A DNA stretch of 22,227 bases from a virus: IMG/VR virus record IMGVR_UViG_3300002242_003302, positions 11,417 to 33,643 of that record, one strand, 5' to 3'. Numbering within the stretch: the stretch's first letter is position 1; each line of letters opens with the position of its first letter. This document shows positions 1,191-19,506 of the stretch, one piece after another. Under the pieces are notes generated by a model. The model had not been told where the DNA came from, did not search any database, and saw only the letters and a list, made by a program, of their open reading frames with translations. The position numbers and the translations under genes were made by a program.

Positions 1191-4015
1191 CGGACAAACC
1201 AGACATATGCTTCTGTAGAGTCATCTGAGGTATTTGCAGTAAGCGTTGATATGTCGCTATCGTTACTTAAGATTTGATCGTGAACAAACGAACCTGTCGT
1301 TACAAGGTTGCTAGTAAGTGTCGTAATGTCGCTATCGTTGCTTATAATCTGATTATGAACAAACGAACCTGTCGTTACAAGGTTTGCGGCGACTGAGTCA
1401 ACTTCCTCGTCTAGGAGTTGCCCTGTAGTGTTAAGGTTTGTTGTGAGTGTTGCAATATCAGTATCATTGCTGATAATCTGATTATGCAAGAAAGATCCAG
1501 TGGTTACCAATTCTGAAGACGAGCCTCCTTGCGACGCCTTCCAGCTTGCATTTCCGTCCGCGTCGCATGTAAGAACCCTATTATTGGCTTGGTTTCCGTC
1601 AGTCATTCTAAAACCAGAGACTGCAAGTCCGTCACTATTGACATGAAGTTTTGCTGATGGATTATCTGTGCCAATTCCAACCAATCCTCCAGTAGTAACC
1701 ATAAAGCTAGAAAACGCCCCAGTTCCTACATGTAGGTCATGGTCAGGATCGGGTTGTTGTATTCCAACTTGTCCGCTATTATTAATAACAAACCTTGTTT
1801 CATCAAAATGAGTGCTATCTTCTACTACAAATATATCTTGAACCGAATCGTCTGTATTTATTAGATGCAACAATCCAGTTGGGCTTATTGTTCCAATTCC
1901 AACATTTCCTCCGCTGTAATATATATCTCCCGCACTAACTCCAGTAGTCCATTTGCCTCCTTCTCCTATTTCGTTATGAAGAAAAGATCCCGTAATAATT
2001 AGATTCGCTGCTACTGAGTCGACCTCTTCATCTAATAGCTGTCCTGTAGTGTTTAGATTTGTGGTAAGCGTAGTGATATCTGTGTCGTTGCTAGCAATTT
2101 GATTATGAAGGAAAGATCCTGTAATTACTAGGTTGGCCCCTACAGAATCCACCTCTTCGTCTAGAAGTTGTCCAGTCGTATTTAGGTTCGTTGTGAGCGT
2201 AGAAATTTGATTATGAAGAAATGATCCAGTGGTCACAAGGCTTGGGATTATGCCAGACACCTCTAGGTTTCCGTCTACTATCGCTTTCCCTCCAACGTGA
2301 ATTAATGCTTGGGGATCGGCTTTTCCAACCCCAACCATGCCGCCATCTTCTATAAATATGCCATTATTTGCATCATCAACTAGATGCAGTCCATCTCCGT
2401 CTCTGGCTTTGATCTTATCTGTTAATATATGCTTTCCGTCTGCAGTAGTGACATGTTCACTGAAATCCCAAGAGTCTGTATCATTCTCCCAGAGAATCGT
2501 TTTATCTGTAGTTCCTTTTAGGGTGATTCCTCCCCCATCTGCTGTAATATCTGTAGGCGAGTCTACAGAGCCAAGTTCAATATTTTTATCATCAACAGTT
2601 AATGTTACTGAATTTATGGTAGTTGTGGATCCAGTAACGGTAAGATTACCTCCGATATGCACATCCCCTGTTACATGAAGTGTGGTTTGTGGATTTTGAG
2701 TTCCAATTCCAACTCTTCCTCCTTCATTGTAGAAAATATTTCCAGCAGACTCTTGCCATTTAATTTTTGATCCAGTTATTATTAGGTTGGCTGCAACAGA
2801 ATCCACTTCTTCGTCTAGGAGTTGCCCAGTGGTATTTAGGTTTGTTGTGAGTGTCGATACGTCGGTATCATTACTGGTAATCTGATCGTGCAAGAAAGAG
2901 CCTGAGGTCACCAAGTTCGCCGCTACTGAGTCAACTTCCTCATCAAGTAGTTGGCCAGTAGTATTTAGGTTCGTCGTGAGCGTCGATACGTCGGTATCAT
3001 TGCTGGTAATCTGATCGTGCAAGAAAGAGCCTGAGGTCACTAGGTTTGCCGCTACTGAGTCAACTTCTTCGTCTAGGAGTTGCCCAGTAGTGTTAAGGTT
3101 TGTTGTATTGATTACAATCGACTCTTCTAAAGTTATTCCAGTAAGCAGAAGGCTAGCGTTGGTTATGGCTTGCTGTTCTCTGATAAGAACATCTTCTTCT
3201 GCCAAAAACTGTCCTGTTGTATTTAGATTCGTGGTAAGCGTAGTGATATCTGTATCGTTGCTCGTAATTTGGTCGTGAAGAAAAGAGCCTGTCGTTACTA
3301 CGTTGTTGGAGAGGGTGTTTATGTTGGCTTGTAGGGTTTCTCCAGTAGTATTAAGATTATCTTTCGTTGATTGCGTTCCACTTGTTACCGCAAGCATAGT
3401 TCCGTCTTTTAGTCCGAGAACTAGAGCCTCATCTTCATTTACCCATAGTTTTGTTTCTCCTAAATATAAACTTGCGGATTCAGCATATACATGTCTAAAA
3501 GGTTTGCTTGGACTACCTAGATCTTGTGTTCCTGAGGATGTGGGAGTATAAAGTCGATCATGGAGATATAAACCCGTGGTTACTAAATTCGATGCGACGG
3601 AGTCTACTTCTTCATCAAGAAGCTGTCCAGTGGTATTAAGGTTGGTGGTTAAAGTTGTAAGATCGCTATCGTTATTGATTATCTGATCGTGAAGAAAAGA
3701 TCCAGTAATTACTAGATTTGCGGCAACCGCATCAACTTCTTCGTCTAGCATTTGGCCAGTGCGGTGAATTCCAGTTAAAACATTTATTCCATTTACTGTT
3801 AGTCCATCACTAAAATTTCCACTAGCAAAGACAATGTTGTCTGAGGTATTAAGGTTCTGGTTCATGGAGAAACCATCCATCTTATTGGAGTCTAAACCAG
3901 TAATTAGAACCTCATTTAGGTATAATGAATCATAGAATCCAGTCGCCCAGGGTTTCCCTAGCCGACCAATGCCTCCTTCTCCGCTATTTCTTGGAACTAA
4001 ATTCTTTGTGGCCAT
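1187..4015 (-). CDS. Large repetitive tail fibre protein
   Basis: This 942-aa structural protein contains about eight copies of a 43-residue unit built around 'LNTTGQLLDEEVDSVAANL' followed by '.GSFLH.QI.SNDTD..TLTTN'. It also has five 'VGIGT..P...LHV'-type segments (near residues 430, 560, 705, 750 and 780) and a 'TTINSVTLTVDDKNIELG' stretch at about 455-485. Such segments are common in long tail fibres and baseplate-associated fibres of marine myoviruses. The Leu/Val spacing in the repeats suggests trimeric coiled-coil or beta-helical shaft modules, with the VGIG segments as beta-rich spacers. The C-terminus ends '...DDSTEAYVWFVR' and overlaps the next gene by 4 nt. There are no Cys residues in the repeats and no obvious catalytic motif. 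The start ATG lacks a recognisable Shine-Dalgarno sequence. Fibre is a confident class call; the exact T4 equivalent is not. Confidence 0.85.
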   Translation of the reverse strand: MATKNLVPRNSGEGGIGRLGKPWATGFYDSLYLNEVLITGLDSNKMDGFSMNQNLNTSDNIVFASGNFSDGLTVNGINVLTGIHRTGQMLDEEVDAVAANLVITGSFLHDQIINNDSDLTTLTTNLNTTGQLLDEEVDSVASNLVTTGLYLHDRLYTPTSSGTQDLGSPSKPFRHVYAESASLYLGETKLWVNEDEALVLGLKDGTMLAVTSGTQSTKDNLNTTGETLQANINTLSNNVVTTGSFLHDQITSNDTDITTLTTNLNTTGQFLAEEDVLIREQQAITNASLLLTGITLEESIVINTTNLNTTGQLLDEEVDSVAANLVTSGSFLHDQITSNDTDVSTLTTNLNTTGQLLDEEVDSVAANLVTSGSFLHDQITSNDTDVSTLTTNLNTTGQLLDEEVDSVAANLIITGSKIKWQESAGNIFYNEGGRVGIGTQNPQTTLHVTGDVHIGGNLTVTGSTTTINSVTLTVDDKNIELGSVDSPTDITADGGGITLKGTTDKTILWENDTDSWDFSEHVTTADGKHILTDKIKARDGDGLHLVDDANNGIFIEDGGMVGVGKADPQALIHVGGKAIVDGNLEVSGIIPSLVTTGSFLHNQISTLTTNLNTTGQLLDEEVDSVGANLVITGSFLHNQIASNDTDITTLTTNLNTTGQLLDEEVDSVAANLIITGSFLHNEIGEGGKWTTGVSAGDIYYSGGNVGIGTISPTGLLHLINTDDSVQDIFVVEDSTHFDETRFVINNSGQVGIQQPDPDHDLHVGTGAFSSFMVTTGGLVGIGTDNPSAKLHVNSDGLAVSGFRMTDGNQANNRVLTCDADGNASWKASQGGSSSELVTTGSFLHNQIISNDTDIATLTTNLNTTGQLLDEEVDSVAANLVTTGSFVHNQIISNDSDITTLTSNLVTTGSFVHDQILSNDSDISTLTANTSDDSTEAYVWFVR
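1210..3770 (-). repeat. 43-aa (129-bp) repeat array inside the fibre gene
   Basis: Eight copies of the '[LM]LDEEVD' motif and ten of 'GSF[LV]H' recur across the fibre gene, some adjacent and some separated by beta-rich inserts. Two further units are diverged: 'TGETLQANINTLSNN' and 'TGQFLAEEDVLIREQQ'. The DNA copies differ mainly at third codon positions, so selection keeps the protein unit. One adjacent pair is almost identical at DNA level and is listed separately. Confidence 0.9.
2854..3111 (-). repeat. Near-identical tandem 129-bp repeat pair
   Basis: Two adjacent units are offset by exactly 129 bp; for example, 'tcgatacgtcggtatcat' occurs at 2854 and again at 2983. They encode the same 43 residues. 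The few differences are synonymous, which suggests a recent duplication by unequal recombination or slippage within the fibre shaft. Confidence 0.85.
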
Positions 4016-7029: not shown

Positions 7030-8102
7030 GAAAAAGTTTTCATTGAGTCGAGAATTTTGTTTAAAGTATTTTCGTAAGTGAGTTGTTTTCCTAGTTCAAT
7101 TCCTTCTTTGTTTTCGTTTTTGCACATTGCTTCTGCGGACTCCATTGCTGTCACAAACTCATCATCATCAAAGGTATATATGTTTCCTTGGTTAAACGGA
7201 GAACCTTCCTGAAAGAAAATTCCATCGTAAACTGGCTCTTTCCCATTAGGCTCTAGGAGTATACAGTTTTTATCGTTCGCCCAGTCTTTGTGTGAGCTAG
7301 CATTTAATACAATGCTCCACTTCCCAAGACATGTTGCGTTAAACGAAGGTAGGTTCCATCCTTCTGCGCCGCTGACTCCGCCGAGATCAATATCAATTGA
7401 GTTGATATAATCGTTTACTTGTGCGTTTTGCGGTAAAAACGGTATAAAATTAATGTTTCCATACCTATTACCTTCTAGAGCTTGGTTGATCATAGCTTCA
7501 AGTTGCTCTTTTTTTAAGAAAGGATTTGTTATGCAACAGCTTAGTTGATATTTATAGTTATTTCCATACTTTTTTGCCCAGGCTTTTAGTATCTTTGCTG
7601 TATGCTTTCTTTTTTCAAACTTGCCCATAAGTCCGAAATGGATTTTTCCTTGTAGGTATGTTTTATTTAATTTTTTAAAGTCTGGGTCAAGCCCTAGTGG
7701 CGAGCTAGATACATTGCCCTCGAAATTATTCGCAGCAAAGCGACTGCTAAATATAACTCCGTCTTGGAGTTCGCAAAGCTTTCTTTCTTGCTCTGTCGGT
7801 GAGTCCAGTTCGTAGAATGTATAAAGAAATTGGTTTCTAGATATTCTGTTTTCTGATCCATTGAGGTGCCACATTTGTAGCGTTGGAGTGTCTTTATCAA
7901 CTTTTAGACATCTGTTATTTACTCCGTCTTCGAGCCAAGCCTTAAATTCTTCATCTTGTGGCCCAAAGGCAGATACCTCAACATTTCCGATTGGGAAGAT
8001 TGCTGTCTCTATGCCTTTTTTGTATATCTCTCTAAGAAGATTGAATGATACATTCCCGAAGGATAGAGAGTTTAGCGGACCCTTAAATATTAATTCTTTC
8101 AT
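7026..8102 (-). CDS. GT-B fold glycosyltransferase (GT4-like)
   Basis: This 358-aa protein has the two-domain look of GT-B enzymes. The second domain carries 'SGAEGWNLPSFNATCLGKWSIVLNAS' at about 244-270, the counterpart of the GT4 'S..EGfGlp.lEAmA.G.PvI.s' donor-binding motif, although the second acidic residue of the usual E-x7-E pair is replaced by Asn. 'KIHFGLMGKFEKRKHTAKILKAW' (153-175) matches the start of the C-terminal Rossmann domain. It would transfer a sugar from a nucleotide donor to an unknown acceptor. It is the last gene of the operon with SSB and the sigma factor, and its start overlaps the SSB stop as TAATG. It is separate from the large plus-strand glycan operon, which is odd and may mean a distinct target. 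Confidence 0.75.
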   Translation of the reverse strand: MKELIFKGPLNSLSFGNVSFNLLREIYKKGIETAIFPIGNVEVSAFGPQDEEFKAWLEDGVNNRCLKVDKDTPTLQMWHLNGSENRISRNQFLYTFYELDSPTEQERKLCELQDGVIFSSRFAANNFEGNVSSSPLGLDPDFKKLNKTYLQGKIHFGLMGKFEKRKHTAKILKAWAKKYGNNYKYQLSCCITNPFLKKEQLEAMINQALEGNRYGNINFIPFLPQNAQVNDYINSIDIDLGGVSGAEGWNLPSFNATCLGKWSIVLNASSHKDWANDKNCILLEPNGKEPVYDGIFFQEGSPFNQGNIYTFDDDEFVTAMESAEAMCKNENKEGIELGKQLTYENTLNKILDSMKTFS

Positions 8103-8506
8103 TAAAATGGGATATCTGCAAATTCATCATCCTCTTCTTGAGGGGCGCTCTCGGGGCTTTCTTGCTTAGGTTCGGGTTTTGGGTTAGGAGATCCTTCTTC
8201 GGACTTACTGTCTAGAAATGTTACTATATCCGCCACACAAAAGACTTTGCTTCGGTTTTCTCCGCTCTTGGATTGCCATTTATTTAGCTGAAGCCTTCCT
8301 TCCACAAGAACCTTTCTTCCTTTAGATAGGAATCTACTGCAGTTCTCTGCAGACTTATTCCAAGTCTCTACGTCGATAAATGTGACGGAGTCATTGATTC
8401 TATTATTTATGGCTATGCAAAACTTACATACCTTTTTGTCCTGGCCGACAGATTTTGTTTCGGGGTCGCCAGTTAAATTTCCTATACCTATGAATTTATT
8501 TAACAT
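8102..8506 (-). CDS. ssb: Single-stranded DNA-binding protein
   Basis: This 134-aa bacterial-type SSB has an OB fold over about residues 1-102 ('MLNKFIGIGNLTGDPE', 'TFIDVETWNKSAENCSRFLSKGRKVLVEGRLQLNKWQSKSG', 'VTFLDSK'), a Pro/Glu-rich linker, and the acidic tip 'DDEFADIPF' that recruits partner replication and repair proteins. It coats single-stranded phage DNA during replication and recombination. The length is slightly below host SSBs (about 150-180 aa), owing to a short linker. It overlaps the sigma-factor gene by 11 nt and the next gene by 1 nt, so translation is coupled. The intact C-terminal tip suggests it can engage host SSB-interacting enzymes. Confidence 0.95.
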   Translation of the reverse strand: MLNKFIGIGNLTGDPETKSVGQDKKVCKFCIAINNRINDSVTFIDVETWNKSAENCSRFLSKGRKVLVEGRLQLNKWQSKSGENRSKVFCVADIVTFLDSKSEEGSPNPKPEPKQESPESAPQEEDDEFADIPF

Positions 8507-9101
8507 CTTCTTTGTCTTTAATGGTTTCTCTTATTGATTGTATTGCTGAGTTGTGGATGTTTATACATCCTTGAATGCTTAAGTTCATTTTTTTGCCTAT
8601 ATTCTTCCATGGCATTACTTTATTTTTCTTGCCAATAATATACCTCATATTGAATATTTTTTCAACTCTTTTATCTGGGTGACGGCTTATTAGCTGAAGA
8701 ACTTTGGTTAATGAGTCTTTTTTTAAATTCTCTTTTACCGAGTCCGAATAAAGCTCTAGATCTGGGTGGAGTAGGTCTAGAGTTTCCGTGGTTATCGTCG
8801 GGTGTCTTTTATTTTTATTGTATGTATTTAAGCATAGCCACTTTGTTTCATTACCTAGGTATGTACTAAATTTTGCGCCCCTATTCGGGTCATACTTAAC
8901 TGCGGCTTGATATATGTTGTAATTTTTGTCTTTAATTAATTCGTTTCTATCTATAAAGTTACTATCCCTTGAGGCGTATGTATTTATGATATCAAGATAT
9001 ATTCCACTATGCCTTTCGATCAATTCACTTAAATGTAGTGATGGATCTTCGTCTTTTTTAATTAAAGATATTAATTCTAAATCAGAGTAATTGGTGTTCA
9101 T
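8496..9101 (-). CDS. Phage RNA polymerase sigma factor (sigma-70 family, gp55-like size)
   Basis: This 201-aa protein starts at the ATG 'MNTNYSDLEL'; a TTG two codons upstream is less likely. Residues ~52-98 hold a sigma region 2 pattern: 'LIKDKNYNIYQAAVKYDPNRGAKFSTYLGNETKWLCLNTYNK', matching '...G...A..KfDp.rG.kFsTYa....r'. The C-terminal 'MPWKNIGKKMNLSIQGCINIHNSAIQSIRETI' (about 160-192) matches the region 4 helix-turn-helix that contacts the -35 element. It should bind host core RNA polymerase and redirect it to a phage promoter class, like T4 gp55 for late genes. Which genes it drives is unknown, since the promoters I can read here look like host sigma70. It overlaps the dNMP kinase gene by 20 nt and ssb by 11 nt. 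Confidence 0.8.
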   Translation of the reverse strand: MNTNYSDLELISLIKKDEDPSLHLSELIERHSGIYLDIINTYASRDSNFIDRNELIKDKNYNIYQAAVKYDPNRGAKFSTYLGNETKWLCLNTYNKNKRHPTITTETLDLLHPDLELYSDSVKENLKKDSLTKVLQLISRHPDKRVEKIFNMRYIIGKKNKVMPWKNIGKKMNLSIQGCINIHNSAIQSIRETIKDKEDVK

Positions 9102-9657
9102 TCTCAAAGAGGTTATTAAGTGTTTCTTGAATTGTTTCTATATATTTTTCTGAGTCATCCCCAATAGTGCTCCAGTGGACTCTCTCATTTGCCATCTCAA
9201 TGAGGATAGGTTCGTTGTCTGCTTCATCTTGGTTTGCTGGTCCAAAACCCTCTCTACTTATATGTACAACAGACCCACCGAGAGATTGAACCCACTCCGC
9301 CTCATTCCCAAACCTTACGTCTGTAATGATTGGGGTTCTGCCTTGAGCTAAGCATCTTAAGACATTAGATTCTACCTTCTTAATCCAGCAGTTCGGGTCG
9401 AGCCTCCTTCTAAGGTGCGTTCCGTATGTAACAAGGAAGGGTCTAATTATTTCCTTCTCGGATGAATTTTCTGTAAATGCAGAGATTCCTAGATTCTTTA
9501 TAAGGAATGAATCACACTCCTTTTTGAGTTCATCTGCAAAGGCAAATCTTACTGAGAGAACTTTCCTTTGATTTAGCAAATCCTTTGATACATTAAAGAA
9601 AGTGTCCTTTCCTGCTCTAGCATTGCCACATAATCCTATTACTGTTGGGCTTCTCAT
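9082..9657 (-). CDS. Deoxynucleoside monophosphate kinase
   Basis: This 191-aa P-loop kinase has the Walker A motif 'GNARAGKDT' at residues 11-19, 'FAFADELKKECDSF' at 38-51 (the usual 'aFAdpLKe' element after the P-loop), 'TYGTHLRRRLDPNCWIKKV' at 77-95 and 'IITDVRFGNEAEWVQSLGG' at 110-128. These match T4 gp1-like dNMP kinases, which turn dNMPs, including those from degraded host DNA, into dNDPs for phage replication. The start overlaps the previous stop by 4 nt (ATGA). The length is normal for the phage family (about 190-240). Substrate range, including modified bases, cannot be told from sequence. Confidence 0.85.
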   Translation of the reverse strand: MRSPTVIGLCGNARAGKDTFFNVSKDLLNQRKVLSVRFAFADELKKECDSFLIKNLGISAFTENSSEKEIIRPFLVTYGTHLRRRLDPNCWIKKVESNVLRCLAQGRTPIITDVRFGNEAEWVQSLGGSVVHISREGFGPANQDEADNEPILIEMANERVHWSTIGDDSEKYIETIQETLNNLFENEHQLL

Positions 9658-9965
9658 GTATCAAATATCTTCTTCATTGTTTTCGACATGTTGTGATATC
9701 CTGCATTTGCAAGTATCTTTGATGTAGAATGGAACAACATATTATCATCCTTTTCTGGATCCTCTGGGAGGTCAGACACATCTATTGAGATCATAACACA
9801 AGACAGTTTTAAGTTGTCCCCGTATTCCTCCATCATATAGCTTAGAGCTTCCGTACTCGCCTCATCGTGATCCGTGGACTCTACTGCGACAGACCAGTCC
9901 GAACACTTAATAAGAAAAAGCCGATTGTCTTTAATTTCGATTATCATAAAAACATAGTTTACCAT
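9654..9965 (-). CDS. Hypothetical small acidic protein, first gene of the nucleic-acid operon
   Basis: The protein is up to 103 aa and of no recognised family. It has a beta-rich start ('MIIEIKDNRLFLIKCSDWSVAVES'), an acidic middle ('DLPEDPEKDDN') and a basic C-terminal helix ('NAGYHNMSKTMKKIF'). Two starts are possible. ATG 9965 has only a weak GGA upstream. ATG 9947 (97 aa, MIIEIKDN) lies 2 nt from the +1 predicted by the promoter at 9956-9984 and gives a more natural protein start. It heads the operon with dNMP kinase, sigma factor and ssb, and overlaps the next gene by 4 nt. Confidence 0.65.
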   Translation of the reverse strand: MVNYVFMIIEIKDNRLFLIKCSDWSVAVESTDHDEASTEALSYMMEEYGDNLKLSCVMISIDVSDLPEDPEKDDNMLFHSTSKILANAGYHNMSKTMKKIFDT

Positions 9966-9984
9966 ATTATTCCAACAAAGTCAA
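9956..9984 (-). promoter_or_regulatory. Sigma70-like promoter for the nucleic-acid operon
   Basis: On the minus strand, TTGACT (9979-9984, 5 of 6) and TAAACT (9956-9961, 4 of 6) are 17 nt apart, with a TGn extension before the -10. Predicted +1 is 9949, just before ATG 9947. The weaker -10 makes this less certain than the other promoters. Confidence 0.45.
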
Positions 9985-10015
9985 CAAAAAAATAAGGGTG
10001 CCCAAAGGGTGCCCT
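9985..10015 (-). terminator. Terminator-like hairpin and direct repeat in the divergent region
   Basis: GGGTGCCC-AAA-GGGTGCCC is a direct repeat that also folds. On the plus strand it gives 9 bp (9995-10003 with 10007-10015) including two G-U pairs; on the minus strand those two pairs become mismatches. Seven T follow on the minus strand (9986-9992), so it is laid out like a leftward terminator, although no leftward gene lies upstream of it. Function is uncertain: a relic terminator, a block on antisense transcription, or an operator. Confidence 0.4.
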
Positions 10016-10109
10016 AAATTAGTTTACTAATTTTTATATATTATACCTCTATATATTAACATCGTACAATTATTTGCATGACCGACATTCAATTTTTTGA
10101 ATTTAAGGG

Positions 10110-10138
10110 TTGACTTTTTTATCGATATCGAATAATAT
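10110..10138 (+). promoter_or_regulatory. Sigma70-like promoter of the glycan operon with palindromic spacer
   Basis: TTGACT (10110-10115, 5 of 6) and TAATAT (10133-10138, 4 of 6) are 17 nt apart. +1 falls at 10145, exactly the A of the ATG, so a leaderless transcript is predicted. The spacer contains the perfect palindrome TCGATATCGA at 10122-10131, a classic operator position. Confidence 0.7.
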
Positions 10139-10144
10139 TAAATC

Positions 10145-10456
10145 ATGCAAAAGTTCATTCAAGTACCAATCGCAGTCCAAGAGGACGTTCTTTCAGGCAA
10201 ACTGATCGGAAATGACCTAGTCCTGTATAATTATCTTCTAGCAAAAGCGGGGCACGGGAAGCCAATCTATTTCTCAAACAAAAAGATATCGGAAGATCTA
10301 GGGGGTATATCCAATGGTAAGGTATCAGCCAGCTTAGGTAGGCTAGCAAGAGCGAAACATATCTTAAGGAAGAAAACCGCAAACAAGACATTAACTCAAC
10401 TGACTACAGTGGTCCTTGACAAGGATAATATTTACGTGAAAGGAAAACTATCTTGA
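10145..10456 (+). CDS. Small winged-helix-like DNA-binding protein
   Basis: This 103-aa basic protein has a fold pattern of helix (about 22-34, 'GNDLVLYNYLLAKAG'), helix (46-53, 'KKISEDLGG'), recognition-like helix (57-70, 'NGKVSASLGRLARAKHI') and a C-terminal beta wing ('LTTVVLDKDNIYVKG'). This resembles winged HTH proteins of the replication-initiator or MarR/GntR-like kind, without a family I can name. It is the first gene of the rightward operon, and the predicted transcript begins at its ATG. A role as autoregulator of the glycan operon is inferred from position and the palindrome in the promoter. The next gene starts within its stop codon region (TTGA), with AGGA 8 nt upstream. Confidence 0.6.
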   Translation: MQKFIQVPIAVQEDVLSGKLIGNDLVLYNYLLAKAGHGKPIYFSNKKISEDLGGISNGKVSASLGRLARAKHILRKKTANKTLTQLTTVVLDKDNIYVKGKLS

Positions 10457-11403
10457 AAATATCGGTGAGAATGGAAGGCGGTCTAGGAGATCATTTCGCG
10501 GCAAACCGATTTATTCCAGCGATTAAAGAAAAGTATCCCAACTGCGAGATTGACTTATTTTCAGACACAGAAGGTAATTCACATCAATCCGAGATATTAA
10601 ATAAAATGTGGCCATCCCACTTCAAGGAAACCCACGTAATCAAACAAAAGAAATACAAAAATTTCAGAATAAAGTCTTCAAACTTCCCAGAGGAAGACCA
10701 TCGAGGCAACATAAAAAATGTACCGAATAGTGAATGCAAAATCATGACAGAAGATTACGACAAGTTTTACGATCTTCACATAGATTCACTAGAATGGCTA
10801 AACCATGACTATGACTGGTTTAAGTACTTTAACATATTCCCAAAGCCAGAGAAAAGAATGGAAGCCCAGAGATCCCTGCCAGATAATTTCATTCTCGCGC
10901 ACCTTTACGCAAGAGATGACGCAGACTCAAACATGGAAAGCTGGTATATATCAAAACTACTAAATAATATTACCCAAGAATTTGATGTTGTAGTGCTTTA
11001 TGACGAAAACTCAAAAAACCAATACGAAAAACTAATAAGCGAGGACAACCCAAGACTCCGCTTCATACATGCAGACCTAAATGAAATATTTTTTATAGCA
11101 AGTAAATGCTCCGCAATGTTTGGGATTGATTCTGGAATTAGATATATCCCATACCATTTTGGAAAACCCGTATTTACGTTTTCGAAATACTGCAAGCAAT
11201 ATGGAGTTGTTCAATACTCATATCTCATTCGATGGCTGTTTAATGACAGGTATGTATTTCCACTTCACTACGAAGTAACAAGCGCTGGGCAGATCCTAAA
11301 AAATTGCCTAAGAAATCCAGCATACAGACTGTACCCACATCTATTAGATGACATAGAAAAGCTTGTTGCCCAAAGGGATATAACAGAATACATAACAGAA
11401 TGA
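10453..11403 (+). CDS. GT9-like (heptosyltransferase-type) glycosyltransferase
   Basis: This 316-aa protein starts at TTG, overlapping the previous TGA; AGGA lies 8 nt upstream, and the opening 'KISVRMEGGLGDHFAANRFIPAIKEKYP' is the beta1/GGLGD element of GT9 heptosyltransferases, which supports this start. The C-terminal half has 'ASKCSAMFGIDSGIRYIPYHFGKPVFTF' at 216-243, matching GT9 'p.sgp.HlA.a.GkP.i.lfG'. GT9 enzymes add heptose or related sugars to LPS cores from ADP-heptose. This one may use another donor, since no heptose biosynthesis gene is certain here. It is the first sugar-transfer gene of the operon, and its stop overlaps the next ATG by 4 nt. Confidence 0.7.
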   Translation: MKISVRMEGGLGDHFAANRFIPAIKEKYPNCEIDLFSDTEGNSHQSEILNKMWPSHFKETHVIKQKKYKNFRIKSSNFPEEDHRGNIKNVPNSECKIMTEDYDKFYDLHIDSLEWLNHDYDWFKYFNIFPKPEKRMEAQRSLPDNFILAHLYARDDADSNMESWYISKLLNNITQEFDVVVLYDENSKNQYEKLISEDNPRLRFIHADLNEIFFIASKCSAMFGIDSGIRYIPYHFGKPVFTFSKYCKQYGVVQYSYLIRWLFNDRYVFPLHYEVTSAGQILKNCLRNPAYRLYPHLLDDIEKLVAQRDITEYITE

Positions 11404-12188
11404 AAGTAGCACTATGTTTTAGCGGAAAGCTTGGAGACTGGAAAGAATGTTCGGAATCCATTATTCAAAATATTATATCTCCATTAAAGCCAGACATCTT
11501 CCTATCGACATGGGACGACGAACCGTATGAAGATTTTGTAAAGTTCTACAAACCCGCTAGCTGGCAGGCAATTAACTTCAAGGAAACAATGAAATTTCTT
11601 AAGCCAGAAAACCTTGCATACGAACCCAACGCAGGACTAATACCGATGCTCGCTGGCATTAAGGCTGTAAACTCTATATTTCAACGACACCAACAACTAA
11701 AGAAAAAAGACTACGATTTAGTTATAAGATTAAGGCCAGACGTGATGGTCTTAGAGCAAATTAAAAAGCACGAAATAAAAGATTGTTTAAAAAATAAAAA
11801 CATCCTACTACCTTTATTCGAAAGCGACAACATTTACGATCACGAAGAAGAATTAAAAAAAGAATTTTCCTTTAGTTTTGTTTACGACAAAGCATCTCTA
11901 CCAAATCAGATCAACGATCAAATAGCAATTGGCCGCCCAGACCAGATGAACAAATATATGAACAGCTTAATGAGCGTCGGGATGGCTATAAAAATGTTAT
12001 GGGACGAAGGATACCCAGAGTATATGATAAAGGTCCCAGAGTCGGTGATGACTATTTGTCTAAATATCCAACAATGCAGATACAACCAATTAACTGGGAC
12101 TAATTCTTTCGGAAATATCAAAACTATATTATGTAAAGATGGAAAAAAATGGAGAAACAAGGGACACAACTCTACTATAGTTAAGTGA
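11400..12188 (+). CDS. Putative glycosyltransferase, 'RLRPDV' family
   Basis: This 262-aa protein opens with 'MKVALCFSGKLGDWKEC' and has 'YDLVIRLRPDVMV' at 105-117, followed by 'INDQIAIGRPDQMNKYM' at 171-187. This pair (R.RPD plus nDqi..G..d.M..Y) marks a family of uncharacterised glycosyltransferase-like proteins frequent in polysaccharide clusters and marine phages. The Asp of RPD could serve as the metal-binding DxD-like residue. The donor and acceptor are unknown. It overlaps its neighbours by 4 nt on both sides (ATGA and GTGA), consistent with translational coupling. Confidence 0.6.
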   Translation: MKVALCFSGKLGDWKECSESIIQNIISPLKPDIFLSTWDDEPYEDFVKFYKPASWQAINFKETMKFLKPENLAYEPNAGLIPMLAGIKAVNSIFQRHQQLKKKDYDLVIRLRPDVMVLEQIKKHEIKDCLKNKNILLPLFESDNIYDHEEELKKEFSFSFVYDKASLPNQINDQIAIGRPDQMNKYMNSLMSVGMAIKMLWDEGYPEYMIKVPESVMTICLNIQQCRYNQLTGTNSFGNIKTILCKDGKKWRNKGHNSTIVK

Positions 12189-13147
12189 AAATATTTTTCC
12201 CAGACATACATATAACCTTAACGAGAAATTTTGGAAAAGCTCTTGAAGAAATTGGCCACGAACTAATTCTACCATCTAAAGATTACAAGGTGTCCCAGTA
12301 CCCTCCTCAGAAATGGGTCTGGAACGAGTCTCACGATGAACAAAACTTAGCCAAGCATGATTTCGGCAAAAACACAATCCTTGTAAATAATGAGCAATTA
12401 ATGGAAATAAAACCCGACGTTATATTTGTGTCTGCTTTCGAGAATCAATTTGAGGTGATTAATGTTATTTGGGAAGAAGCTAAAAACTGGGGAGCGAAAT
12501 TAGCTTTCTATAGCGGAAATGACTACTGGGATTCGGCATACCCATGGGACATAATTAAAAACTATCTACCAGCAGATAATCTCGCGGCATCTATATGCAA
12601 AGAGAAAGGCGTTCATCACCACCACTATAGGCCATGGATAGACTATGATATGTTCTCATATGAGGGGTCTAGCGAATCAAATAAGGTTGGAACCTATATA
12701 TGTGACTATCAAAATAATTTTTCGGAAGACTACGATATATACAATACCATAAGAAAACACACATCAAGCTTTCTGGATTATATATTATGCGAAGAATCTA
12801 CCAAACAAGAAACTGCGGAGATAATGAACGAAAGCGCATTTACCCTTCATGTAAAAAGCTTAGAGGGTTATGGTTTTGCCATTATTGAAAGTATGGCCAG
12901 AGGAAGGCCAGTGTTCCTCTTTGACCCTTTAACCGCAAACAAAAGCTTCCTTAAATGGAGCGAGCTGGGAACTACAGCATTTTCATTCACCAACGGGCAG
13001 AGCTACGAAGATCAAGTAAAGCGACTACTAAATGAACACGACTACCGAGCAGAGGTTCAAGAAAAGTGTGCTAAGAGAATTAGAGAGCTTGTTAATAATG
13101 AAGAGCAAAACGAAAAATTAAAAAACTTTCTAGAGAATCTTTTATGA
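12185..13147 (+). CDS. GT-B glycosyltransferase (GT4-like)
   Basis: This 320-aa protein starts at GTG, overlapping the previous stop as GTGA. The C-terminal donor-binding motif is clear: 'LHVKSLEGYGFAIIESMARGRPVFLF' at 221-246, with the E-x7-E spacing of GT4 (E227 and E235). The N-terminal domain begins 'MKIFFPDIHITLTRNFGKALEEIGHE', as expected for the acceptor-side Rossmann fold, and 'KLAFYSGNDYWDS' lies in the middle. It is shorter than typical GT4 proteins (350-400 aa). A four-His run (144-147) is noted with no assigned role. It overlaps the following GT17 gene by 4 nt. Confidence 0.75.
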   Translation: MKIFFPDIHITLTRNFGKALEEIGHELILPSKDYKVSQYPPQKWVWNESHDEQNLAKHDFGKNTILVNNEQLMEIKPDVIFVSAFENQFEVINVIWEEAKNWGAKLAFYSGNDYWDSAYPWDIIKNYLPADNLAASICKEKGVHHHHYRPWIDYDMFSYEGSSESNKVGTYICDYQNNFSEDYDIYNTIRKHTSSFLDYILCEESTKQETAEIMNESAFTLHVKSLEGYGFAIIESMARGRPVFLFDPLTANKSFLKWSELGTTAFSFTNGQSYEDQVKRLLNEHDYRAEVQEKCAKRIRELVNNEEQNEKLKNFLENLL

Positions 13148-14010
13148 AATTTTACGACTGTATTATGTTTAGAGATGAGCTGGATCTACTTAGATTGAGA
13201 ATAGATATCTTAAAAGATAAGGTTGATGATTTTATAATCTTTGAAGCGTTAAACGAACATCTCTCTGGTAAAGAAAGAGAGGTATTCCTAGATAGCAAAA
13301 AGCTCAAAAGCATAAGGTCTGAGTTTGCAGATAAAAACATCACTCATGTAAAAGTACAGCTCAATGAGGATACTGCATGGGGCAGAGAAAACGAACACAG
13401 AATTAAAATATATGACTATTTTAATGATTTAAACCCAGACCTAGAAGACACAATTTTAATATCAGATTGCGACGAAATCCCAAATCCTAAAAAACTAAAA
13501 GAATCAGCTAGGCATGATTTCGTTTTCTTTGATCAGATGTATTTTATTCACTTTCTCGATTTATACTCATCTAAAAATGTTACTGGAACGGTTGCAATTA
13601 AGTGGCACAAACTAAAACTAATACAAAAAAAATACAATAACGTAGCTTGCCAACTATTAAGAAATAACAAAGATTTTGGCCCAGAGATTAATGATGGAGG
13701 CTGGCACTACTCTTACGTTGGTGGGGTGGACCAAGTTACAACAAAAGCTAGAACAATAGCCGAAGGAGACCAAGCCTATGAGAGGGATTTATTTGTAGAG
13801 CAAATTAAAGAAGCTTTAGAAAATAAAAATAGCCCCTATTCCAGCGAAAAGCTCGTAAAGCTAGATGGAGATACAGACATGTATACAGGTAGCTATATAA
13901 AGCTTAGGGCGGGCAACATCACAAAACACCAAGACGGCAACGAACCCTTTCCTGAATTTTTATTAAATAATAAAGAAAAATATAAACACTTATTCTCTTA
14001 TGAAAATTAG
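13144..14010 (+). CDS. GT17-family glycosyltransferase, copy 1
   Basis: This 288-aa protein begins 'MKFYDCIMFRDELDLLRLRIDILKDKVDDFIIFEA', the GT17 signature start, with 'SDCDEIPNP' at 107-115 (DxD-type metal/donor site) and 'GGWHYSYVGG' at 185-194. GT17 is the family of eukaryotic bisecting N-acetylglucosaminyltransferase (MGAT3); bacterial and phage members occur in polysaccharide clusters with mostly unknown donors. A second, diverged copy lies at 15831. It overlaps the next gene by 11 nt. Confidence 0.85.
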   Translation: MKFYDCIMFRDELDLLRLRIDILKDKVDDFIIFEALNEHLSGKEREVFLDSKKLKSIRSEFADKNITHVKVQLNEDTAWGRENEHRIKIYDYFNDLNPDLEDTILISDCDEIPNPKKLKESARHDFVFFDQMYFIHFLDLYSSKNVTGTVAIKWHKLKLIQKKYNNVACQLLRNNKDFGPEINDGGWHYSYVGGVDQVTTKARTIAEGDQAYERDLFVEQIKEALENKNSPYSSEKLVKLDGDTDMYTGSYIKLRAGNITKHQDGNEPFPEFLLNNKEKYKHLFSYEN

Positions 14011-14779
14011 CATAGTTACCACTTACTATAATAGATGGCCTCAATTTGAATCAACACTAAAAAGATTTAACAAGCTTTACAAAGGTAGGCACGATTGGGA
14101 CTTAGTTGTTGTAGATGACTGTAGTGACGATGAACACGCCCTCACGAAAGAAAGATTGAAATTCTGTGATTTTAACGTGCAAGTCGTACAAATGCCCCCA
14201 GAAAAAAAATACTGCAATCCATGCGTACCCTTCAACGTTGGATTTGTCCACGCTTACGGAGATATCATTTTAATACAAAATCCAGAATGCACACATTACG
14301 ATAACATTTTAGATGACTGTCTAAACTTGGAGGATAATGAATATAGGGTCTACTCCTGTTTCTCAGCCGACCCAAATCAAACAGAAGCAATTAAGAAATC
14401 CTCACCAGAGCTGGATAACATATTCGAAGGTAATACAAAGTCAGCCTCTAGCGATGGTTCATTTGACTCGTGGTATCAACACAAGGATATAAGAGACCAT
14501 TCATTGCATTTTTGTGCCGCAATGAAAAATAAAGACCTCAGAGACCTGCAAGGCTTTGACCAAAGATACGCAAAAGGGGTCGGTTACGATGACAACGAAT
14601 TCCTTCACAGGATAAGAATGAAAAACATGAACATAACGTGCTCAGATAAGGTTGTATACCATCAATACCATAAAGGTTTTTGTGGCAATCAAGAATACAA
14701 ACCAGAGGTCGACAATTACTCCCTATACCATGGGTTCACCTTAAATAGAAAAAGTTACAAGTCCCAAGACAACGAATGA
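14000..14779 (+). CDS. GT2-like (GT-A fold) glycosyltransferase
   Basis: This 259-aa protein starts 'MKISIVTTYYNRWPQFESTL', the GT2 beta1 element, with 'WDLVVVDDCSDDE' at 33-45 (nucleotide-binding DD), 'PCVPFNVGFVHAYGDIILIQNPE' at 74-96 (the usual 'N.G...A.Gd...l.dpD' region, with E in place of the final D), and 'LQGFDQRYAKGVGYDDNEFLHRI' at 183-205, resembling the GT7 C-terminal/galactosyltransferase-associated segment. It is an inverting sugar transferase by fold; donor unknown. It overlaps neighbours on both sides (11 nt and 4 nt). Confidence 0.8.
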   Translation: MKISIVTTYYNRWPQFESTLKRFNKLYKGRHDWDLVVVDDCSDDEHALTKERLKFCDFNVQVVQMPPEKKYCNPCVPFNVGFVHAYGDIILIQNPECTHYDNILDDCLNLEDNEYRVYSCFSADPNQTEAIKKSSPELDNIFEGNTKSASSDGSFDSWYQHKDIRDHSLHFCAAMKNKDLRDLQGFDQRYAKGVGYDDNEFLHRIRMKNMNITCSDKVVYHQYHKGFCGNQEYKPEVDNYSLYHGFTLNRKSYKSQDNE

Positions 14780-15834
14780 AGACAATCATGACAGTTACTG
14801 GTATTAGGCCAGACTTCATAAGAATGTCTAAAATCTTTTCGGATTTAGATGAAAACTTCAATCACATCCTGGTTCATACTGGACAACATTACGACGAATT
14901 GCTTTCTGGGGTTTTCTTTAACGAACTAAACATTAGAAAGCCAGACTTTAATCTAAACATTGGCGCAGACGGAAAGAAGCATTATCATCAGTCGGCAGAT
15001 CTTCCAGTAAAACTTATTGAGTTAATTGAATCAAAAAATATAAAACCAGACCTCATACTTTTCCTTGGAGACTCGAATTCTGTATGTTGCGCAATGCAAC
15101 TTAAAAAGGAAGGTTACAAAATCGGACATATCGAAGCAGGAATGAGATCTGGAGACAAGAGAATGCTCGAGGAAATAAATCGCACAGTTTGTGATCACTG
15201 CTCAGATTTCTTGTTCGTATATCATGATGACTACAAGAACAACTTAAACAAAGAGAACATCACGAAAGGCGTACATGTTGTAGGGAATACAATAGTTGAA
15301 GTTCTTAATGACTGCTTTAACAATCAAGTTTTATACGAAAAGAGAAACAACCACATCTTACTTGATATACATAGACCAGAGAACTTTAAATACGAAAACA
15401 GACTCAAAAACATAATTGACTTCGCTAAGCATTGTCAAAGATCAATAGGTCTAAAAGTTAAATTTTTAAACTTTAAAAGAACAACCTCGTATTTGGAAAA
15501 ATTCAAAATAGACTACTCTGATTTAAACATGGTCGACTTAATGTCTTATAAAGATTTTCTATCAGAACAATACCACTCTAAGTTTATAATATCAGACTCT
15601 GGTACCGCCCAAGAAGAGCCTGCGCTACTAGGAACGCCAGTTATAGTCCCTAGAGACTATACAGAGAGGCCTCAGTCTGTAGAAAACGGTTGCTCCATGA
15701 TGATAAATGCAAATAAAAAGAACCTGCCAGACGAAACTTTAAATTTTATTCAAAACTTCAATCCTGATACCAAATGGCTTGGAGAGGGAAAAACTTCCGA
15801 AAAAATTATCAACATACTAAAACAAGAATTATGA
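14776..15834 (+). CDS. UDP-GlcNAc 2-epimerase family enzyme (WecB-like)
   Basis: This 352-aa protein matches non-hydrolysing UDP-N-acetylglucosamine 2-epimerases: 'TGIRPDFIRMSKI' (8-20), 'HTGQHYDELLSG' (34-45), 'FLGDSNSV' with D99, 'HIEAGMRSGD' with E120, 'LEEINR' with E132/E133, 'DIHRPEN' with H199, and the UDP-binding 'SDSGTAQEEPALLGTPVIVPRDYTERPQSVENG'. These correspond to WecB catalytic residues D95, E117, E131 and H213, so it should be active. The usual 'PEE.NR' proline is Leu here, and the GG of 'SDSGG' is GT. The likely product is UDP-ManNAc or an equivalent C2 epimer. Hydrolysing NeuC-type activity cannot be excluded. Confidence 0.85.
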   Translation: MKTIMTVTGIRPDFIRMSKIFSDLDENFNHILVHTGQHYDELLSGVFFNELNIRKPDFNLNIGADGKKHYHQSADLPVKLIELIESKNIKPDLILFLGDSNSVCCAMQLKKEGYKIGHIEAGMRSGDKRMLEEINRTVCDHCSDFLFVYHDDYKNNLNKENITKGVHVVGNTIVEVLNDCFNNQVLYEKRNNHILLDIHRPENFKYENRLKNIIDFAKHCQRSIGLKVKFLNFKRTTSYLEKFKIDYSDLNMVDLMSYKDFLSEQYHSKFIISDSGTAQEEPALLGTPVIVPRDYTERPQSVENGCSMMINANKKNLPDETLNFIQNFNPDTKWLGEGKTSEKIINILKQEL

Positions 15835-16631
15835 GAACCTTCGACTGCTTTACATTTTTTAACGAACTAGAGCTTCTTGAGTTCAGATTCAATGTTCTAT
15901 ATGAGCATGTTGATCGCTTTGTGATTGCAGAAGCAAATAAAACCCATACTGGCAAAGATAAAGATTTCATATTCGAGAGAAATAAAGATAGATTTTCAGA
16001 TTTTTTAGACAAGGTTATATACGTAAAGGTCTTAGACCTCCCTTCTTATAGAGAAGACATGAAGGTTCAAGGAATGGTAGATTGGATTCCAGAAAATTTT
16101 CAAAGAAATTGTCTAGCCAGAGGCCTAAACAACCAAAACTTAACTTCTGAAGATAGAATAATTGTCTCAGATCTCGATGAAATTCCAAATCCAGAAACCT
16201 TAAAAGCCAACTTGCATCATAAAGACTGGGTAAGCCTCAGGCAAAAACTTTACTACTATTACATTAATTGCGAACAAAAACAAATGTGGGACGGTCCAGT
16301 CATAGCTAGCCCAGCAACATTCGGAGCATGTCAAGACCTTAGAAATAATAGAGGAATTAATGCTATAGAAAATGGGGGTTGGCATTTCTCCTTTATGGGA
16401 GGCGCAAGCAGGATTCAGGAGAAGATTCAAAACATTGCAGAATCAAATCTTGTAAAACATAAAGTTATGGGAGTGGAGGATATAGAAAATAAAATGAAAA
16501 CCCAGACTGATTTATTTGACAGAGATGATGACTTTGCCCAAAAAAGAATAGTTGAAATAGATGACACGTTCCCAAAAGCAACTTTAGATTTTGTAAAAAA
16601 ATATCCTCAGTTTTTGTTTAGTGAAGATTAA
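15831..16631 (+). CDS. GT17-family glycosyltransferase, copy 2
   Basis: This 266-aa protein starts at the ATG overlapping the previous stop (ATGA); an in-frame extension upstream to 15774 reads through the epimerase gene and has no family similarity. The N-terminus 'MRTFDCFTFFNELELLEFRFNVLYEHVDRFVIAEANKTHTGKDK' is an even better GT17 match than copy 1. 'SDLDEIPNP' is at 113-121 and 'GGWHFSFMGG' at 182-191. The two GT17 proteins are clearly homologous but diverged, suggesting two distinct linkages rather than redundancy. It overlaps the next gene by 11 nt. Confidence 0.85.
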   Translation: MRTFDCFTFFNELELLEFRFNVLYEHVDRFVIAEANKTHTGKDKDFIFERNKDRFSDFLDKVIYVKVLDLPSYREDMKVQGMVDWIPENFQRNCLARGLNNQNLTSEDRIIVSDLDEIPNPETLKANLHHKDWVSLRQKLYYYYINCEQKQMWDGPVIASPATFGACQDLRNNRGINAIENGGWHFSFMGGASRIQEKIQNIAESNLVKHKVMGVEDIENKMKTQTDLFDRDDDFAQKRIVEIDDTFPKATLDFVKKYPQFLFSED

Positions 16632-17469
16632 CGTAGTCACGGTTGATTCTGGATGGATACTTCAGAAAATAGCAGAGAGAATATGCTCCGCTAAACCAGA
16701 TGTATTCTCACTATCTCATAATCCAAGAAATGATGTAGACGCCAATTTTTACATAGATATCCAGAACTGTTACAAAGGAAAAACCAGCACACTAGATATT
16801 GGGTTTTTCACACACTTGCACGAAGACTGCACGGACTACCTAAACCCCTATTGGCTTCAACTAGATTACATAGTGCATATGTGTTCTAGATATTACGAAA
16901 TGTTTTCTCCTTATTATACCAAAGAAAAAATGTCAGTTATGATGCCTGGAGAGTACTGCGAAAACTTTAAACCCAAAAAACAAACCATAGGAATATTTCA
17001 AAGAGGAATGCACGAAGGCAAGGGTTTCCATTTCATGAAAACAATGGCCGAAAAGAAAATCTTAAAAAAATTTAAATTTCTATTCGTGGGAAAAGATTGG
17101 GGAGAGGTCATAGATCTATTCAGGGAAAATGGTATAGAGGTTGAATCTGAAGAAGACGAGGTATATGAAAAGTATCCAGATCTATATGCAAAAATAGACT
17201 ACTTACTAATACCCTCCTTATGGGAAGCTGGCCCAATGTCAACGATTGAGGCTTTTAGTTGTGGAATTCCAATTATATCTTCCTATGTAGGGTGGATGGG
17301 AATAGACCTAAAGCCAGATTTCATATACAATGCAAATGCTGATATTGAATTAGAGTCTATTTTTGATAATATATTCAACAAGATCAGATCTAGGGTAGAT
17401 CAAGTAAAAGATTTGTCTTATAAAAATTATTCTAATAAAATCATAGAGATAGTGGAGAAAATTAAATGA
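16621..17469 (+). CDS. GT-B glycosyltransferase (GT4-like)
   Basis: This 282-aa protein starts at GTG, inside the end of the preceding GT17 gene. The second domain shows 'IGIFQRGMHEGKGFHFMKTMAEKKILKKFKFLFVGKDWG' (123-161) and the donor motif 'IPSLWEAGPMSTIEAFSCGIPIISS' (197-221), with the E-x7-E pair at E202/E210. The N-terminal domain is short (about 115 aa), so the protein is compact for GT4. It overlaps the methyltransferase start by 4 nt. Confidence 0.75.
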   Translation: MKINVVTVDSGWILQKIAERICSAKPDVFSLSHNPRNDVDANFYIDIQNCYKGKTSTLDIGFFTHLHEDCTDYLNPYWLQLDYIVHMCSRYYEMFSPYYTKEKMSVMMPGEYCENFKPKKQTIGIFQRGMHEGKGFHFMKTMAEKKILKKFKFLFVGKDWGEVIDLFRENGIEVESEEDEVYEKYPDLYAKIDYLLIPSLWEAGPMSTIEAFSCGIPIISSYVGWMGIDLKPDFIYNANADIELESIFDNIFNKIRSRVDQVKDLSYKNYSNKIIEIVEKIK

Positions 17470-17921
17470 AGTTAAACATTGGGTGCGGTAACGACTATAT
17501 GGAAGGCTGGACAAACCTAGATTCTGGAGACTGTAAATGCGACATCTCCCATAATATAGAGTTTACTCCTTGGCCTATAGAAAGCGATTCGGTTGAAGAG
17601 ATTTTGATGAAACACGTCCTAGAACATATAAGCAGAGACAATTTTCTTAATGTAATAAGAGAGCTTTACAGAGTATGTTGCGGCGGCGCCAAAATACATA
17701 TTCAAGTACCATATGCTGGTTCAGATAATTTCTGGACAGATCCGACTCACAAAATGCCCATCACTACAAGAACGCTGGATTATTTTGATCACAATAAGCC
17801 GCTTGGAGAAAATGGAAAAATTTACGGATGGCACGATGTCAACCTTTCTGTGGTTTCAGAGCTTGTGGACAACCCACCAAACGGGCCAGATGTTTTCTTT
17901 TATATATTAGTCAATAAATAA
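17466..17921 (+). CDS. Class I SAM-dependent methyltransferase (small)
   Basis: This 151-aa protein begins 'MKLNIGCGNDYMEGWTNLD', the glycine-rich SAM-binding motif I in the form common to methyltransferases of polysaccharide clusters, with 'IEFTPWPIESDSVEEILMKHVLEHIS' (31-56, motifs II-III with the 'VLEH' element) and 'GGAKIHIQVPYAG'. The likely role is O- or N-methylation of a sugar or end-capping of the glycan, inferred from the cluster. It is shorter than typical (about 200-250 aa), lacking the usual C-terminal strands, but the core is complete. Two nt separate it from the next gene. Confidence 0.75.
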   Translation: MKLNIGCGNDYMEGWTNLDSGDCKCDISHNIEFTPWPIESDSVEEILMKHVLEHISRDNFLNVIRELYRVCCGGAKIHIQVPYAGSDNFWTDPTHKMPITTRTLDYFDHNKPLGENGKIYGWHDVNLSVVSELVDNPPNGPDVFFYILVNK

Positions 17922-17923
17922 AC

Positions 17924-18715
17924 ATGTTCTCATATTATACAATTATAGGAAAAAACCTTAATCTATTAAAAGGTCACATAGATAACGTTAAAAATTACGC
18001 TGGATTTGATAAAATTGAGTGCGAAAAAGAACTCATAGTTATTGTCTACAAAAATAGGAATATACCACAAGAAACCACAACAGAAATTTTAAAATACTGC
18101 GACGAAGAAGGTTTGTCAACATTTATATACGAAGAGCAGACGGACAACTTCCTCCACAACCTATATGCATGCTGGAACCTTGGTTACGAAAAAAGTAAAG
18201 GGGGTAGGGTTTTTCGTGGGGGTTCAGACCAGGTATTCTCCAAGGACAGTTTCGTCTCTCTAGAAAGGTTATCCAGAGGCTTGGATAAAACCATTCTGCA
18301 AGCAAATACTATAGAATGTCTTCCCAGATTAAGGAAAATTGGAGCGACATCAAGACACATAGAACAAGACTTTGGATTTAATTTTGAAAACTTCGATTTA
18401 GAAAAATTTGAAAAATTCGTAGACTCCATGAATGAAAGTTGCGACAAGGAGCTTTTGTCTATCGACGAGTGCCTATACAGATGGGGAAAACCGACAGGAT
18501 TTAATTGCAGCCTCGGTCCCGTTAATCGGTGCGATGGTTGCTCATGGTTGATGACAAAAGAACAATGGAAAGAGTTTGGACCCATGCCTGAAATAGAAAA
18601 CGGAATTACTGGAGATGTCATAATACACGATAGAATGCAAAAAGCTGGATACAAAAGCTTCATGGTTAGGGACTGCGTTACATATCATTTCGTACAAGGA
18701 GAAAGCACAGAATAA
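17924..18715 (+). CDS. GT2-like (GT-A) glycosyltransferase, divergent
   Basis: This 263-aa protein has the GT-A order. An N-terminal Rossmann-like part ('KELIVIVYKNRNIPQETTTEILKYCDEEGLSTFIYEEQTDNFLHNLYACWNLGYEKSKGG') leads to 'RVFRGGSDQVFSKDSF' at 95-110, where SDQ stands in the DxD position. A C-terminal part follows with 'CSWLMTKEQWKEFGPMPEIENGITGDVIIHDRMQKAGYK', typical of GT2 '..d.d...R...aG'. Family resemblance is moderate, and the altered DxD could mean metal-independent or changed chemistry. It sits between the methyltransferase and the dehydrogenase with a TAATG overlap to the latter. Confidence 0.6.
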   Translation: MFSYYTIIGKNLNLLKGHIDNVKNYAGFDKIECEKELIVIVYKNRNIPQETTTEILKYCDEEGLSTFIYEEQTDNFLHNLYACWNLGYEKSKGGRVFRGGSDQVFSKDSFVSLERLSRGLDKTILQANTIECLPRLRKIGATSRHIEQDFGFNFENFDLEKFEKFVDSMNESCDKELLSIDECLYRWGKPTGFNCSLGPVNRCDGCSWLMTKEQWKEFGPMPEIENGITGDVIIHDRMQKAGYKSFMVRDCVTYHFVQGESTE

Positions 18716-19506
18716 TGAACATTGGCGTGATTGGGGTTGGAATTGTGGGGGAAGCATGCAAATATGGTTTCGAAAAGTTGGGCCATACAGTAATCTGTCA
18801 CGATATTAAACTAGACACCTCTATAGAGGACACCCTTTTTTGTGATGTTATTTATATCTGCGTACCAACCCCAACCCTAGATGACGGGAGTTGCGATATA
18901 TCTATTGTCGAGGAAACAGTTGTTAAACTCAGTTGTCTTGGATTTGATGGAATTGTTGCGATCAAATCAACAGTAAAACCAACTACCTCAGATAGGCTCG
19001 CAAGGGAAACAGGGCTAAAGATTTGTTTTGTACCAGAATTTTTAAGGGAGAGGTGTGCGATTACAGACTTCACAGAAAACCATGACCTATTAGCGGTCGG
19101 TACAGACAGTGAATATGTATATAAAATTATTAAAGAATGTCATGGTAATTTTCCCCAGAATCATGCAATGCTAGCAAGAACAGAAGCAGAGATGTTAAAG
19201 TATTACTCCAACGTAATCAATGCCCTTAAGATAGTTTTCGCAAACTCTATGTATGAGGTATGCAACTCCATAAACTGCGACTATACAAAAATAAAAGACA
19301 CATTTATTAAAAGAGGGACAACAAAAGATCTCTATCTCGATGTGAACACAAACTTCAGGGGTTACGCTGGGGTATGTTTGCCAAAAGACACAAAAGCCCT
19401 AGACTCTTTCGCTAAAGAACTCGGTTTAGACTTAAAACTATTTGAAACAATAGAACAAGAAAACAATAAATTTAAAAAAACAGTATTCAAAGGAATGAGA
19501 AAATGA
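18715..19506 (+). CDS. Minimal UDP-glucose/GDP-mannose dehydrogenase-family protein
   Basis: At 263 aa this is far shorter than ordinary UDP-sugar 6-dehydrogenases (390-450 aa). The NAD-binding 'MNIGVIGVGIVGEACKYGFEKLGH' (1-24), 'IYICVPTP' (46-53), 'KSTVKPTT' (84-91), 'VPEFLRE' (106-112), the central helix 'EAEMLKYYSNVINALKIVFANSMYEV' (157-182) and the active-site 'GYAGVCLPKDTKAL' (216-229, catalytic Cys221) are all present. The roughly 30 residues normally between beta2 and beta3 are missing, and so is the whole C-terminal UDP-binding domain. The catalytic set suggests real oxidation of a C6 alcohol, but how substrate is held is unclear; it may use a smaller substrate or a partner protein. 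Confidence 0.75.
   Translation: MNIGVIGVGIVGEACKYGFEKLGHTVICHDIKLDTSIEDTLFCDVIYICVPTPTLDDGSCDISIVEETVVKLSCLGFDGIVAIKSTVKPTTSDRLARETGLKICFVPEFLRERCAITDFTENHDLLAVGTDSEYVYKIIKECHGNFPQNHAMLARTEAEMLKYYSNVINALKIVFANSMYEVCNSINCDYTKIKDTFIKRGTTKDLYLDVNTNFRGYAGVCLPKDTKALDSFAKELGLDLKLFETIEQENNKFKKTVFKGMRK

Follow-up and report, generated by a model that had tools for sequence, protein, structure and literature searches.

Introduction

Phages P2 and P4 encode small DNA-binding proteins, the late-gene activators Ogr and Delta, whose dyad sites are located upstream of the -35 element; Ogr is a zinc-binding protein. In the telomere phage PY54, the cI/cro immunity switch has divergent leaderless mRNAs and a 16 bp palindromic operator (PMC4488713). 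Here we describe a locus on an uncultivated phage contig that resembles the PY54 switch in its divergent phage promoters, predicted leaderless mRNAs, small regulator among the first genes and symmetric candidate operators; a literature search for a module of divergent promoters, dyads and a winged-helix gene retrieved no description. The whole stretch of DNA analysed, referred to as the window, is 22,227 nt long and corresponds to G000:C1:11417-33643 within a linear virus record of 46,750 nt.

The original prediction for this window was an autoregulated switch, in which a small protein at the head of a glycan operon would act on a palindrome within its own promoter. Comparison with related phages indicates that autoregulation is likely, since symmetric sites do accompany the gene, but that the palindrome is not the operator.

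Results

The gene expected directly downstream of the promoter is present as an open reading frame, and its product is predicted to adopt the anticipated winged-helix fold (pLDDT 88, pTM 0.82).

10145 to 10456, plus strand: gene of the 103-aa winged-helix protein, first of the rightward operon (open reading frame, relatives and structure model)

The protein shares the general fold of ArsR, MarR, CodY and Rep-type domains, and its generic matches also include Rep initiators and replisome organizers, with no relative in the PDB by sequence. Assignment to a family from structure matches was rejected, as those at Z 8-9 span many unrelated winged helices, and a Foldseek search of the PDB gave no match at E 0.001 or better, with many unrelated families tied. 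At the sequence level, Pfam HTH_36 (PF13730) scores 15.5 bits (E 0.015), below its gathering threshold of 25 bits, so that the protein is not assigned to this family; among the relatives, 9/28 match HTH_36 at E up to 1, the best at E 4e-4. The protein does match PHROG 22534 (E 9.1e-07, 29.8 bits, residues 13-89 against positions 17-90 of a 111-position profile), a family that carries no recorded function. Searching deposited phages for sequences similar to the regulator gave nothing meaningful.

Some 30 distinct virus contigs, with lengths of about 31-184 kb, encode homologues with 54-73% identity, and there the gene occupies the same place beside the same left-hand neighbours and, in most, precedes the same first glycan genes. 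None of 50,697 deposited phage records matched the portal protein at E 1e-5, and the terminase of one relative matched Firmicutes phages only, at just 24-28% identity, for which reason we draw no inference on the host. A search with the T4 Gp23 capsid gave no match and is uninformative, since the control was equally silent. The same winged-helix and glycan genes are also found on L065 (RFXU01000199.1), a 3.4-kb contig in a Flavobacteriaceae MAG bin that is probably a mis-assembled phage contig with a piece of a neighbouring gene fused upstream; being this short and apparently mis-joined, it was left out of host and operator inference. For promoter and operator comparison, the 215 nt upstream of the 103-aa gene were aligned for 27 phages with distinct sequence, the window included, and dyad statistics were calculated on 38 sites, from 19 representatives that share less than 85% identity.

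The rightward promoter named in the original prediction, TTGACT-N17-TAATAT, is present in the window and is kept in the relatives.

10110 to 10138, plus strand: rightward promoter, with -35 TTGACT at 10110-10115, a 17-nt spacer at 10116-10132 and -10 TAATAT at 10133-10138; conserved in 27/27 phages

All 27 phages have TTGAC, 17 nt and a -10-like hexamer, with a start codon 6-10 nt further on (in L040 the script picked AATATT as the -10, TAATAT one base upstream suiting the alignment better), and in many relatives the core is near consensus, TTGACA/T-N17-TATNAT. It is this conservation that makes the promoter credible, because in the window taken by itself, promoter-like matches between 9000 and 12000 number 10 where chance predicts 9.1.

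A second promoter, overlooked in the original prediction, faces left, so that the arrangement is divergent around position 10,000.

9956 to 9984, minus strand: leftward promoter, with TTGACT at 9984-9979, a 17-nt spacer, TAAACT at 9961-9956 and an ATG at 9947, 8 nt later; conserved in 27/27 phages
9654 to 9965, minus strand: first leftward gene, listed at 103 aa in the open reading frame list, no family match in Pfam or PHROGs
8102 to 9657, minus strand: genes of a dNMP kinase, a sigma-like protein and SSB, by family matches

Across the 27 phages, the leftward promoter reads TTGACA/T, 17 nt and mostly TATANT, with TG one base ahead of the -10 in 25/27 and an ATG 6-8 nt after it in 27/27. Given this conserved position of the ATG, the true start of the first leftward gene is probably 9947. 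In the window, the rightward ATG at 10145 follows the -10 by 6 nt, so that +1 would fall on the A of the ATG. The idea that the first gene is translated from the first nucleotide of its message is thus supported by the comparison: with both -10 elements ending 6-10 nt (right) or 6-8 nt (left) before the start codon throughout the alignment, both mRNAs are probably leaderless or nearly so.

The leftward set further includes a glycosyltransferase and tail-like proteins. Its sigma-like protein (8496-9107), well conserved on more than 30 contigs, has a sub-threshold match to Sigma70 region 2 and matches PHROG 351 at E 1.5e-9, and is a candidate phage sigma factor. In a leftward protein of 942 aa (1187-4015), beside LamG-like tail proteins, a NLNTTGQLLDEEVDSVAANLV-like repeat occurs many times.

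The window differs from its relatives in the segment that precedes the leftward -35. Relatives such as L014 and L030 share a conserved AT element, TATAAATATAAGA, shortly before this -35; the window lacks it and has in its place a GC hairpin, after which TTATTTTTTTG comes next on the minus strand.

9995 to 10015, no strand: perfect GC hairpin AGGGTGCCCAAAGGGTGCCCT, a short way upstream of the leftward -35; window only

The hairpin could serve as a terminator for leftward transcripts arriving from the right. A shorter form of the AT element, TATAAATA, is found on the leftward strand in 22/27 divergent regions; it was considered as a T4-like late promoter and rejected, as its 9 occurrences in the record (5.7 expected) lie mostly in genes. 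The longer TATAAATATAAGA recurs in the relatives almost only at the divergent locus, and for this reason probably belongs to the left promoter; it could be an UP-like element or a single late promoter.

On the right, the operon retains the glycan character that had been attributed to it, but its size had been underestimated: in place of 16 genes, at least 31 co-directional genes run to the end of the contig.

10453 to 22227, plus strand: glycan-synthesis genes that follow the regulator as far as the contig end; with the regulator, 31 genes

Most of the rightward genes overlap slightly with the next one, in many cases by 4 nt, and Shine-Dalgarno-like sequences are scarce (6/49 open reading frames in the record), so that translational coupling along the operon, beginning at its first gene, seems possible. 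The gene at L004:10126 is preceded by a 50-nt gap with a promoter-like sequence of its own, and the operon may therefore be subdivided at this point.

Conserved symmetric sequences lie upstream of the rightward -35, as two dyads with the consensus TWCAAnnnnTTGWA.

10065 to 10078, no strand: distal dyad TACAATTATTTGCA, centred at -73.5 from the nominal start, from the alignment
10088 to 10101, no strand: proximal dyad TTCAATTTTTTGAA, centred at -50.5 from the nominal start, from the alignment
10054 to 10064, no strand: conserved block TATTAACATCG, abutting the distal dyad on its upstream side, from the alignment of 27 phages

The two dyads are 23 nt apart in 19/19 representatives, and 6 nt separate the proximal one from the rightward -35 in 24/27 phages, the other three having 5, 7 and, in the window, 8 nt. 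The distance from the distal dyad to the leftward -35 is 58-63 nt in 26/27 phages and 80 nt in the window, a gap longer by about two helical turns at the place where the GC hairpin is inserted. Within sites, the two arms complement each other at 156/190 pairs against 142.8 after reshuffling (p about 0.0004, 38 sites), a statistic in which some optimism remains because the alignment was already in view when the dyads were defined; when each phage has the arms of its two sites exchanged, a control that preserves relatedness, 143/190 pairs complement. Degenerate single sites exist, for example the proximal dyads of L035 and L040, and further recognisable versions were read by eye in L077, L078 and L087. 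The TATTAACATCG block is found in most relatives and is possibly a third binding element.

The pair is the sole match in the 46.7-kb record (2 sites seen, 0.02 expected) and is found only beside the winged-helix gene. Extra single matches in related records lie mostly inside long open frames, and a genome-wide dyad regulon was rejected. An RNA element is argued against by the position of the dyads, which lie upstream of both promoters and are thus transcribed by neither. In six more distant relatives, which retain the small leftward gene together with that of the sigma-like protein, the winged-helix gene is nowhere in the records and no dyads lie beside the leftward gene, and three of them have a glycosyltransferase gene directly at the regulator's place; these six are also the most distant relatives, and two of them, L045 and L046, are near-identical. 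From this joint absence, the gene and the dyads appear to behave as one cassette.

Discussion

In the mechanism that we favour, RNA polymerase would start at back-to-back sigma70-type promoters, each giving a leaderless or nearly leaderless mRNA, and the rightward message would encode the winged-helix protein first and then at least 30 co-directional genes, mostly for glycan synthesis. The winged-helix protein would bind, as dimers, the TWCAAnnnnTTGWA dyads, whose centres lie near -71 and -48 at a spacing of 23 nt, and on the sequence comparison we regard it as probable that it autoregulates its operon through both of them, with one sign or the other. Whereas the promoters, the dyads with their geometry and their co-occurrence with the gene are seen in the comparison, we infer the identity of the binder, its dimeric state, the sign of control, any effect on the leftward promoter and the truly leaderless state of the mRNAs. 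The preferred sign is negative: the near-consensus core promoter would give an early burst, and shut-off would follow once dimers fill the stretch meant for the alpha subunit of polymerase. Negative feedback is slightly preferred on account of this core and of the proximal dyad over the alpha-subunit region, and taken by itself it is a plausible reading, if somewhat short of a probable one. Against it stands the fact that activators use upstream positions such as -48 and -71 no less often than repressors do.

The same autoregulation could also have the opposite sign. Dimers near -71 and -48 would then recruit polymerase via alpha or sigma and turn the glycan operon on, much as small phage activators of the P2 Ogr type do from their dyads, as is suggested by sites that lie upstream of the core promoter, not over it, at a fixed distance to the -35; a near-consensus core should need no such help, however, and we hold a positive switch to be possible but rather doubtful.

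It is unlikely, though still worth weighing, that the winged-helix gene is a bystander and that the dyads are bound by another factor (a nucleoid protein or regulator of the host, or a further protein of the phage) or serve the polymerase alpha subunit as an A-tract UP element. Both dyads have central T-tracts, and the proximal one, at -57 to -44, suits an UP-like stretch, but an UP element needs neither dyad symmetry nor co-variation of the arms nor a fixed 23-nt duplication, and another factor would fit poorly with the joint absence of dyads and gene in the six relatives. A replication origin, with tandem iteron-like repeats by an AT-rich stretch and a Rep-type winged-helix initiator binding them, appears improbable: the fold matches do include Rep initiators and replisome organizers, and the direct repeats at 23 nt adjoin a 60-nt segment of 13% G+C, but there are two repeats only, with no more in the 46.7-kb record, they keep a fixed distance to the promoter -35, and the protein is a lone 103-aa winged-helix domain at the head of a glycan operon.

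The weakest candidate for the operator is the palindrome originally proposed, which was said to fill the centre of the 17-nt spacer and is indeed within it, but off centre, at spacer positions 7-16.

10122 to 10131, no strand: palindrome TCGATATCGA, judged a chance feature from its chance frequency and its absence from all relatives

Perfect 10-nt palindromes are no more frequent in the window than in first-order Markov sequences (22 against 27.7 +/- 5.4), and about 2.7% of shuffled spacers contain a palindrome of at least 10 nt. Across the 27 spacers, two such palindromes are seen against about 0.7 expected, and their sequences are unrelated, the second being AAAAAGCTTTTT in L001. TCGATATCGA was sought in all other phage loci fetched and found in none, including the 26 other aligned phages that keep the gene and the promoter; its absence in relatives that retain the gene was named beforehand as an observation that would speak against the operator. 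The spacer is moreover the least conserved promoter segment, with a mean pairwise identity of 0.43 in the 27-phage alignment against 0.90 for the -35 and 0.76 for the -10. It is thus very improbable, in spite of the location of TCGATATCGA between -35 and -10, that this sequence is the operator of the winged-helix protein, and on these comparisons it is a chance feature of one phage. With it goes the proposal that bound repressor blocks polymerase from inside the spacer, the conserved symmetric sites being instead upstream of the -35.

Returning to autoregulation through the dyads, the nearly constant distance between the distal dyad and the leftward -35 makes it possible that the winged-helix protein also affects the leftward promoter. 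The locus would then have a rigid layout, in which about 60 nt separate the left -35 from the first dyad, 9 nt the two dyads from each other and 6 nt the second dyad from the right -35, and would oppose glycan synthesis to the sigma-like, SSB and tail genes. That one protein sets two leaderless operons against each other in this way, as a growth timing switch conserved in a large group of uncultivated phages, is a speculative proposal that we think unlikely to hold in full. The left gap of 80 nt in the window, in place of 58-63 nt, is a single case, and the difference of about two turns fits helical-phase control.

These data provide a concrete candidate operator and regulator for an uncultivated phage group and suggest a way in which its members might control the timing of their glycan operon (about 25 kb), whose products could modify host or virion surfaces. 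The locus is also a further conserved example of divergent phage promoters whose messages are apparently leaderless.

With respect to known systems, the protein described here differs from P2 Ogr in being a predicted winged helix that is encoded inside the operon and has two sites, and Ogr is not among its Pfam or PHROGs matches, so that it is not placed with the Ogr-type proteins. The layout resembles that of cI/cro, with symmetric candidate operators between divergent promoters. No sign of a second repressor was seen; a DNA-binding protein is recognised on the right only, and the first leftward gene matches neither Pfam nor PHROGs. PY54 is temperate and has two repressors and one operator, whereas the present locus has one winged-helix gene and two dyads 23 nt apart; the fold also differs from that in PY54, and the operons that diverge here are those of glycan synthesis on one side and of the sigma-like, SSB and tail genes on the other.
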